Assembly (NCBI RefSeq): GCF_012163135.1 | Contig: NZ_JAAVUP010000002.1 | Coordinates: forward strand, 372,001-436,000 | From: Neoroseomonas oryzicola | GTDB lineage: Bacteria > Pseudomonadota > Alphaproteobacteria > Acetobacterales > Acetobacteraceae | Reading direction: 5' to 3' | DNA: 64,000 nt | Shown: positions 31,951-39,528 of the stretch, piece by piece | Layout of the letters: the number at the start of each line of letters is the position of its first letter | Numbering within the stretch: position 1 is the first letter of the stretch | Made by a program: the position numbers and the translations under genes | Notes under the pieces: generated by a model | The model's input: only the letters and a program-made list of their open reading frames with translations | Told to the model about the DNA's origin: nothing | Database searches by the model: none

Positions 31951-35196
<3,246 letters not shown>

Positions 35197-37581: not shown

Positions 37582-38958
37582 TCAGGCGCCGGCCTTGTGC
37601 GCCTCGATCATCTCCACGAAGCGGTGGAAGAGGTAGTGGCTGTCGGACGGCCCCGGGCTCGCCTCGGGGTGGTACTGCACCGAGAAGGCCGGGCGGTCGG
37701 TCGCCGCGATGCCCTCATTGGTGCCGTCGAACAGCGAGACATGCGTGACCGTGGCGTTCGCGGGCAGGGTCTTGGGGTCCACCGCGAAGCCGTGGTTCTG
37801 GGACGTGATCTCGACCTTGCCGGTGGTCAGGTCCTTCACCGGCTGGTTCGCGCCGCGATGCCCGCGCGCGAGCTTGTAGGTCTTGGCACCCAGCGAGAGC
37901 GCCAGTAGCTGGTGGCCGAGGCAGATGCCGAAGACCGGCAGCTTCGTCTCGAGCACGCCCTGGATCGCCGGGATGGCGTATTCCCCTGTCGCCGCGGGAT
38001 CGCCGGGGCCGTTCGAGAGGAACACGCCGTCCGGCTTGTGGGCCAGGATCTCCTCGGCGGTTGCCGTTGCCGGCACCACCACCACCTCGCAGCCAGCGGA
38101 GGCCAGGCAGCGCAGAATGTTGCGCTTCGCGCCGTAGTCGACCGCGACGACCTTGTGCTTCGGCGCAGTCTGCCGGCCGAAGCCTTCCGGCCACGCCCAT
38201 TCCGTCTCGTCCCAGGCGAAGGTCTGGCGGCAGGTGACCTCCTTCGCGAGGTCCATGCCCTCGAGCCCCGGCCAGGCCGCCGCCTGCGCCTTGAGCGCGG
38301 CGATGTCGAAGCGCCCGTCGGCCTGGTGGCAGATGACGCCGTTCGGCGCGCCTGCGTCGCGGATGCGCGCCGTGAGCGCGCGCGTGTCGATGCCGGCGAG
38401 CCCCGGGATGCCGTGCGACTTCAGCCAGGCGTCGAGATGCTTCGTCGACCGCCAGTTGGCCGGCTCCGTCACGTCCTGCTTGACGATCAGGCCGCGCGCG
38501 GCGGGGGTGATCGTCTCGATGTCCTCGGCATTGGTGCCGACATTGCCGATATGCGGGAAGGTGAAGGTGATGACCTGCCCTGCATAGGACGGGTCGGTCA
38601 GCGTCTCCTGATAGCCCGTCATGCCGGTGTTGAAGCAGATCTCGCCGGCCTTGGCGGTTTCGGCGCCGAAGCCTCGGCCCCAGAAGATCGTCCCGTCGGC
38701 CAGCACCAGGCAGCCCGTGGCGCCGTCAGGGGGGGTCTCGGCAGAGGCCATGGCCGGCTCCGTCTTCTGGGTTTCCGTGGGCGCGCCGGGAAGGTCGGAC
38801 AAAGCGAGGCCGGTGGCGGCCAGGACGGCGGGCCAGTGCTTGGCCGGGATGGCCTTGGCCTGCCGCCATTTGCGGATGGCCTCGGTGCCGACGCCGCAAC
38901 GGGTCGCTGCCGCCTCGGGGCCGCCGAGCAGGCTGATGATCTCTTCCACGGTGCGCAT
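37582..38958 (-). CDS. carA: Carbamoyl-phosphate synthase small subunit with N-terminal Cro/YdaS-like HTH domain
   Basis: 458 residues from ATG 38958. Residues 1-60 ([19 protein letters not shown], then [19 protein letters not shown]) read as a helix-turn-helix of the Cro/YdaS type, joined by a short linker to normal CarA. The CarA part begins near residue 78 ([15 protein letters not shown]). It contains the glutaminase with Cys in [15 protein letters not shown] and the His/Glu in [13 protein letters not shown]. It releases ammonia from glutamine for CarB. An internal ATG at 38751 has GGAG six bases upstream, so a short HTH-less form may also be made. The promoter has a palindrome between -35 and -10, and the predicted start site falls on the ATG (leaderless). 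Auto-repression by the fused HTH is inferred; the enzyme identity is certain. Confidence 0.95.
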
Positions 38959-38964
38959 GGCCCC

Positions 38965-38994
38965 CTGATACCGGGAAATGATTTCCCAGGGCAA
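38965..38994 (-). promoter_or_regulatory. carA promoter with palindromic operator A
   Basis: Minus strand: -35 TTGCCC (38994-38989), an 18-base spacer and -10 TATCAG (38970-38965). The spacer holds the perfect 15-base palindrome GGGAAATGATTTCCC (38973-38987). Transcription would start about seven bases on, at the carA ATG (38958). The palindrome placement is that of a classical repressor site, and the fused HTH domain of CarA is the nearest candidate ligand. Confidence 0.7.
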
Positions 38995-39008
38995 GGTGAA
39001 TCCCGTGG

Positions 39009-39046
39009 CTGGGAAATTTCCTCCCAGACGATCGGCGCGCTATAGG
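39009..39046 (+). promoter_or_regulatory. Palindromic operator B and yqeY promoter
   Basis: CTGGGA at 39009-39014 and TCCCAG at 39022-39027 form an inverted repeat. They share the CTGGGAAAT half-site with operator A, 38 bases away centre to centre, and contain the perfect decamer GGAAATTTCC (39012-39021). A plausible yqeY -10 (TATAGG, 39041-39046) lies downstream, with the weak -35 inside the repeat. Two sites could let one regulator loop or cooperate across the divergent promoters. Confidence 0.6.
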
Positions 39047-39075
39047 GGTGCCCGATCAGACCGAGGATCCCCGCC

Positions 39076-39528
39076 ATGTCGCTGCGCGACCGTTTCATGG
39101 ATGAGCTCAAGACCGCGATGCGCGCCGGCGACAGCGCCCGCGTGTCCACCCTGCGCATGATCCAGGCCAAGCTGAAGGACACCGACATCGCCGCCCGTCC
39201 GGGTCCGCCGGTGGACGAGGCCGGGATCGTCGCGATGCTGCGCGGCATGGCGAAGTCGCGGGCGGAATCGGTCGCGCTGTACCGCCAAGGCGGGCGCGAG
39301 GAACTGGCCGCGAAGGAGGAAGCCGAGATCGCGGTGATCGACAGCTTCCTGCCCCAGCAGATGGACGAGGCCGCGATGGCCGCCGCCGTGGACGCCGCCG
39401 TGGCCGAGACCGGCGCCGCCTCGATCAAGGACATGGGCAAGGTCATGGCGGCGCTGAAGGGCAAGTACGCCGCGGTGCTGGACATGGCCAAGGCCGGGCC
39501 GATGGTGAAGGCGCGCCTCGGCGGCTGA
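39076..39528 (+). CDS. GatB/YqeY domain-containing protein
   Basis: 150 residues starting SLRDRFMDELKTAMRAGD, with GAGGA eight bases before ATG 39076. Typical segments are TLRMIQAKLKDTDIAAR, AIDSFLP-type (AVIDSFLPQQMDEAA) and GKVMAALKGKYAAVLDM. The family is related to the tRNA-binding tail of GatB and may affect tRNA-dependent amidation; its precise role is unsettled. Its placement divergent from carA and upstream of dnaG-rpoD is conserved in alphaproteobacteria. Confidence 0.95.
   Translation: MSLRDRFMDELKTAMRAGDSARVSTLRMIQAKLKDTDIAARPGPPVDEAGIVAMLRGMAKSRAESVALYRQGGREELAAKEEAEIAVIDSFLPQQMDEAAMAAAVDAAVAETGAASIKDMGKVMAALKGKYAAVLDMAKAGPMVKARLGG

Follow-up and report, generated by a model that had tools for sequence, protein, structure and literature searches.

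CarA with an N-terminal Cro-type helix-turn-helix domain and matching operators in its own promoter: a probable self-repressing enzyme of the Acetobacteraceae

The fused CarA and its promoter in Neoroseomonas oryzicola

We analysed a stretch of 64,000 nucleotides from Neoroseomonas oryzicola (contig NZ_JAAVUP010000002.1, positions 372,001 to 436,000; hereafter the window). On its minus strand lies carA, the gene for the small subunit of carbamoyl-phosphate synthase (CPSase), which codes in one frame (37582-38958) for a Cro-like segment of residues 1-56, a linker and a full CarA. Two short palindromes, the operators O1 and O2, lie upstream. An earlier sequence-only reading of this DNA had proposed a trigger enzyme that represses its own gene. 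The functional conclusions given here rest on sequence comparison and structure prediction. The features, with positions in the window, are the following.

37582..38958, minus: carA with an N-terminal Cro-type helix-turn-helix (HTH); single frame of 458 codons, from translation
38791..38949, minus: HTH domain, residues 4-56 (NCBIfam profile NF046037, carph-isopro; AlphaFold2)
38857..38886, minus: recognition helix (residues 25-34; residue 33 lies at the helix end), from AlphaFold2 and position scan
38713..38790, minus: linker of residues 57-82, which the model shows as partly disordered (low predicted local distance difference test values, pLDDT)
38973..38987, no strand: operator O1, perfect 15-bp palindrome GGGAAATGATTTCCC, in the carA -35/-10 spacer
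39011..39025, no strand: operator O2, GGGAAATTTCCTCCC, in the region that separates carA from the divergent yqeY; it is the 15-mer of the inverted repeat 39009-39027 that is in register with O1
38989..38994, minus: likely -35, TTGCCC (by eye; the layout recurs in family promoters)
38965..38970, minus: likely -10, TATCAG (by eye; 6 nt before the ATG)
38749..38751, minus: in-frame ATG giving CarA without the HTH (389 residues), from sequence
38758..38761, minus: GGAG, which may serve as ribosome site for the internal start, from sequence
39076..39528, plus: yqeY, divergent neighbour (open reading frame, ORF; name by eye, from the sequence-only reading)
31951..35196, minus: carB-like ORF downstream on the same strand (name by eye)

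The claim that CarA bears an extra N-terminal HTH in one continuous frame was borne out by translation, profile matches and modelling. The NCBIfam search of the fused protein (HTH-CarA) gave 469.6 bits for TIGR01368 (CarA; cut-off 307.35) and, at residues 4-56, 65 bits for NF046037 'carph-isopro', over its curated cut-off of 38. In Pfam the protein matched CPSase_sm_chain and GATase. PF14549 (P22_Cro; 20.4 bits for the whole protein, 24.5 bits for the N-terminus) and PF15943 (YdaS_toxin; 19.1 and 23 bits) remained below their gathering thresholds of 30.2 and 30, and neither a ribbon-helix-helix nor a proline dehydrogenase domain was matched. Modelled alone with AlphaFold2, the domain folds as a four-helix Cro-type HTH (helices 4-10, 14-21, 25-34 and 39-49; mean pLDDT 90.7), while the linker is of low confidence (pLDDT <50 at residues 62-70). 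Cro proteins, including N15 Cro on operator DNA (6on0), were reached by both sequence and fold searches with modest scores. The nearest named match is the domain of Neoroseomonas marina, which is identical (100% over 59 residues).

Judged from the profile score and from C346, H430 and E432, which are invariant across 30 sequences, the enzyme part of HTH-CarA is intact. A whole-genome search found no second CarA, the other matches being partial at about 30-37%, and NF046037 passed its cut-off at one place in the genome, carA.

The likely -35 and -10 of carA are separated by a spacer of 18 nt (by eye), and the centres of O1 and O2 are 38 bp apart. Both the perfect palindrome in the spacer and the related inverted repeat at 39009-39027, already described by the sequence-only reading, were confirmed. 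The pattern GGGAAATNATTTCCC occurs perfectly once in the 5.3-Mb genome, at carA itself; one place with one mismatch (L006) falls inside a coding frame, one with two mismatches (L007) was seen as an ORF list only, and the reversed-pattern control gave 0. A chance palindrome was rejected by this comparison and by the counts in family promoters against shuffles given below. When the window was scanned with the family operator matrix, O1 and O2 were the two top places and the third (60667) fell within a UvrD-like coding frame (name by eye); no operator-like site above 7 bits was found for the carB-like ORF.

The far site O2 overlaps the likely -35 of yqeY (by eye), and a similar divergent yqeY-like ORF was recognised in 25 of 30 loci (L008-L037). 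Control of yqeY, as had been suggested, was not upheld, the site pair being kept also in the 5 of these 30 loci without a recognised divergent yqeY.

Fusion, operators and internal start across the family

The NF046037 domain was found in 191 of 200 genomes of Acetobacteraceae (189 over the cut-off), and in a larger draw a related CarA domain was matched in 373 of 397. All but one of the 131 domain places read were CarA fusions. The remaining one (L143, genome G038) carries a carph-isopro-like domain on a protein that resembles the TetR/COQ9 type by eye. We sought carA in 20 genomes without a match (12 + 8; three of the 12, G116, G075 and G069, had an earlier domain signal). Three of them, G029, G116 and G590, have a complete CarA without the domain and several were cut by contig ends; in the remaining genomes, mostly fragmented assemblies, no clear carA was found. 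In a sample of 142 genomes from the class, CarA was present at E<=1e-30 in 113, and the alignment began at residue 1 or 2 in two family members alone. Because none of the 111 CarA proteins outside the family in this sample aligned from there, i.e. none was fused, the fusion looks like a trait of the Acetobacteraceae.

The domain-less CarA proteins (loci L170, L171 and L347) come from small-genome members of the family (1.7-2.1 Mb). In L171 and L347 carA is directly followed by a CarB-like ORF, unlike in the window, where the two are about 2.4 kb apart.

Operators were searched in the 250 nt upstream of the domain at 131 loci, including L143, which has none. GGGAAA-N3-TTTCCC with up to 2 mismatches was present at 128 of the 131, twice or more at 98; among shuffles it turned up in 27 of 2620, and among coding windows in 0 of 131. 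A matrix made from these sites found at least one in all 130 fusions, L143 being dropped, compared with 39/2600 shuffles; 121 of the fusions had two or more. With the outer bases unscored and 40 genomes added, every one of 170 fusion promoters had a site and 158 had two; the 170 are 179 loci minus nine, namely eight duplicates of genomes already present, plus L143.

The position of the sites is regular. Of the 121 two-site promoters, 95 have their sites 37-40 bp apart and 13 have them 48-55 bp apart, and in 82 of 130 promoters the gap from the near site to the start codon is 13-14 nt. Where this gap is 12-16 nt (86 promoters), TTG stands exactly 7 nt before the near site in 78, and the bases after the site fit a -10 element, with A at the third base in 94%. 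Because of this fixed TTG distance and the -10-like pattern, the near site is taken to fill the -35/-10 spacer, as had been read at the N. oryzicola locus, and the messenger RNA (mRNA) probably starts at or next to the ATG. The carA mRNA is then probably leaderless. Of 1344 5' ends mapped in Gluconobacter oxydans, 62 were leaderless (PMC5756330); the text consulted has no mention of carA.

For comparison we used 31 carA loci: 28 non-fused ones from other families, L203 from a fused family member, and L170 and L171. An operator within 2 mismatches was found in none of the 28, and L203 has one site. L170 (G029) and L171 (G116) have neither domain nor site, yet retain a divergent yqeY-like ORF; L347 (G590) likewise lacks both domain and sites. 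This joint loss in two lineages is suggestive, being too rare for statistics.

A scan of the HTH positions identified residue 33 as the best predictor of the outer operator base (eta2 0.53; z 14.8 against permutations, a value that ignores kinship). The next-ranked positions are 24, 35 and 22, all of them within or beside helix 25-34. With Gln33 (137 promoters) the outer base is G in 456 of 528, with Ser33 (24 promoters) it is C in 81 of 92, and with Ala33 (2 promoters) C in 6 of 8. The first, unselected set held 120 Gln and 5 Ser, and the later 40 loci were enriched for Ser by design. On the tree, residue 33 changed 8 times, giving independent differing pairs that number 6 in all and 2 well-supported; in 200 pairings the operator went the same way in a mean of 1.3 pairs, the opposite way in 0.1 and showed no difference in 0.6. 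Among the sequences compared, the outer base of the operator thus goes with the recognition-helix residue 33.

The second start at 38751 with its own ribosome site, another claim of the sequence-only reading, is present, and such starts are enriched in the family. An in-frame ATG with a ribosome-site-like sequence was found in the linker of 73 of 130 genes, compared with 12 of 650 equal-length core windows and 5 of 260 out-of-frame readings. In the short-gap group the figure is 52 of 89 (control 9/445), and 84 of these 89 genes have no ribosome site ahead of the first ATG; L121, which has no ATG, was left out of this start comparison. The pattern fits a leaderless first start followed by an ordinary second one.

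Self-repression and the other readings

Taken together, these data make it very probable that HTH-CarA is a self-repressing enzyme, i.e. an autorepressor of carA ('trigger enzyme'). Of the earlier proposal, a probable repression of carA was supported by comparison, given the genuine HTH, the operators in 170/170 fusions and 0/28 controls and their place in the spacer. The HTH domains of two CarA chains would bind each 15-bp palindrome via helix 3, and a dimer on O1 would cover the -35/-10 spacer and exclude RNA polymerase from the carA promoter. On O2, about 38 bp upstream, a further dimer would add occupancy and may touch the yqeY promoter. More HTH-CarA would then mean less carA, a one-gene feedback with enzyme, sensor and repressor in one polypeptide. 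The linker start, present in about half of the genes, would add HTH-free CarA, so that only part of the pool would repress.

Several observations weigh against this picture or parts of it. A simple sigma-70 scan of 38900-39110 gave no promoter, and 12 of the 170 promoters have a single site. No ATG at all is present in 41 of 130 linkers; therefore not every member can make both forms in that way, and two pools are not universal. The outer base is mixed in promoters of genes with Thr33 (5) or His33 (2). Residue 33 had caught attention before the test was made, and similarity to a Ser33 domain guided the choice of 28 of the added loci. When kinship was counted, which was tried twice, the covariation was not significant, with too few independent changes. 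Of the domain-less genomes, G116 has an NF046037 match (E 7.9e-13) at an unplaced position outside its carA locus, and G590 has no yqeY-like ORF beside carA, its whole upstream region being changed.

The palindromes might instead serve a separate transcription factor, with the HTH of CarA inert or acting elsewhere. Among 50 exact operators in 100 family genomes, matched by hand to the domain listing, 28 lie at carA promoters, 21 elsewhere and 1 is undetermined (G016), and the reversed control gave 12. The 21 places away from carA speak for such a factor. Their number is not much above the control, so that the wider regulon of the earlier proposal was dropped and is not claimed. Against a separate factor, the sites accompany the fusion (170/170, compared with 0/28 controls and 0/3 domain-less CarA proteins of the family), their bases track residues of CarA's own HTH, and the NF046037 domain is single in the source genome. 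We regard this explanation as unlikely.

HTH-CarA could also bind the sites and activate carA or yqeY, as regulators of the MerR kind bind within the spacer and activate. The spacer at carA is 17-18 nt, which is near the sigma-70 optimum and needs no re-alignment, and a site that fills the spacer is in the classic position of a repressor; activation therefore seems very unlikely. That the HTH merely anchors CPSase on DNA or keeps subunits together, with palindromes that are left-over places without regulatory effect, would suit the flexible linker of the AlphaFold2 model and the Cro-like domains on membrane proteins, whose palindromes do not exceed chance (2/32 promoters at p<=0.05), but it is highly improbable, since a mere anchor has no need of the fixed place between -35 and -10 that the near site keeps in 78 of the 86 short-gap promoters.

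As signal for the self-repression, the sequence-only reading had suggested pyrimidine, arginine or glutamine status, a choice that the comparison did not support. Our guess is that the signal enters through CPSase assembly or through CarA that is not bound to CarB. In E. coli CPSase, uridine monophosphate (UMP) favours single alpha-beta units and ornithine favours tetramers (PMC6245113). Repression would be expected under pyrimidine excess, yet it is the smallest unit that UMP favours, and free CarA or another assembly may therefore be the repressor.

Metabolic enzymes with their own DNA-binding domain are known. PutA of enteric bacteria acts through a ribbon-helix-helix and redox state, whereas HTH-CarA has a Cro-type HTH on the glutamine amidotransferase subunit of a biosynthetic enzyme. 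Other trigger enzymes, BirA among them, are likewise enzymes that also act as repressors, as is proposed here for HTH-CarA. The proline dehydrogenase PutA represses its own operon, put (PMC6978683). PepA represses promoter P1 of E. coli carAB (PMC6245113); it is unrelated to CPSase, whereas here CarA itself bears the DNA-binding part. The Cro repressors of phages N15, P22 and Xfaso 1 resemble the domain in fold and profile match, as small HTH proteins with short palindromes, but are free phage proteins, while the CarA domain is fused.

The sequence-only reading had known of no description of this arrangement. This holds in part: the same domain, N-terminal on CarA, is catalogued as NF046037 (the 'isopro' of its name perhaps stands for isopropylmalate, which is a guess), and our literature search, which mostly did not cover subscription literature, found no paper on HTH-CarA or naming the NF046037 domain. 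What the entry names is a domain; the operators, their place in the promoter and the internal start apparently lie outside it. Judged by this search, the operator system, its covariation with the helix, the internal start and, if it exists, the class are new, while the domain entry and the trigger-enzyme idea were known.

If the proposal is true, a whole family governs entry into pyrimidine and arginine synthesis without a separate regulator, the enzyme subunit being the repressor, and CarA level, assembly or partner binding could be read directly at the promoter. One mRNA may yield both enzyme and repressor-enzyme. The system would offer a compact, testable feedback model, with a natural series of HTH-operator specificity (Gln33 and Ser33) and natural losses for comparison.

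Related HTH-enzyme fusions in the Alphaproteobacteria

In other alphaproteobacterial families we found Cro-type or related HTH domains fused to crotonyl-CoA carboxylase/reductase, phosphoglycerate dehydrogenase (SerA), HisZ, ArgB, PyrB and PdhA, and further to CoaBC, an NAD(P)H-hydrate enzyme, GlmU and prephenate dehydratase (PheA) (loci L066, L368, L369, L372, L376-L382, L384, L385, L389-L400 and L402, among which L382 is a membrane-protein fusion). The domains on crotonyl-CoA carboxylase/reductase, SerA, HisZ and PyrB passed the NF046037 cut-off; those of the ArgB (34.8) and PdhA (31.9) fusions fell below it, and the CoaBC, GlmU, NAD(P)H-hydrate and prephenate dehydratase fusions had weak domain matches in the genome scan. 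The enzyme matches of HisZ, GlmU and prephenate dehydratase, made on inputs truncated to 420 or 330 residues, stayed under their curated cut-offs.

Some of these fusions have palindromes of their own. For HisZ in one family, TTCATATNATATGAA with up to 2 mismatches occurs in 14 of 23 promoters compared with 4 of 460 shuffles, the pattern being drawn from two of these promoters (L429 was left out). The ArgB operator TTACT-N5-AGTAA, whose pattern comes from the same sequences, has two sites in 3 of 4 genomes and is weak in the fourth; one site sits between TTGAC and TAAATT, just ahead of the ATG. The PyrB fusion promoter carries TTGCG-N5-CGCAA (one genome), and promoter palindromes were also seen at HisZ of another family and at CoaBC. 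The promoter of the SerA fusion (L372) is without a palindrome.

Two layouts recur. A palindrome like TTCATATNATATGAA lies upstream of HTH-HisZ in two different families (L377, L380, L381, L391, L392 and L406-L428), and HTH-ArgB (L430-L432) has two 15-bp sites 34 bp apart, one of them in the -35/-10 spacer, arranged as at carA.

In a single-promoter palindrome test, p<=0.05 was reached by 8 of 27 other enzyme fusions, 2 of 32 membrane-protein fusions and 7 of 26 carA promoters. The test is weak even for real operators, because no more than these 7 of 26 carA promoters reach the threshold. It left out L387 (short upstream), L401, L405 and the stand-alone L373-L375, and, from the membrane group, L043 and L062.

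We lean towards the view that, in Alphaproteobacteria, a Cro-type HTH was repeatedly fused to the N-termini of biosynthetic enzymes (CarA, PyrB, ArgB, HisZ, SerA, CoaBC and crotonyl-CoA carboxylase/reductase; more weakly PdhA, GlmU and PheA), each with its own operators, often of 15 bp and sometimes in a leaderless promoter. This would give one-gene feedback in which an internal start can supply repressor-free enzyme. If this wider class holds, one small module gave many biosynthetic enzymes their own feedback, and regulation would be legible from enzyme sequences alone.

The best NF046037 matches outside the Acetobacteraceae are mostly long proteins with a membrane stretch and a coiled coil, in whose promoters palindromes are not over chance (L038-L061, L063-L065, L370, L371, L382, L383, L403 and L404). 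By eye, we take these long HTH proteins to be mitofilin-like.
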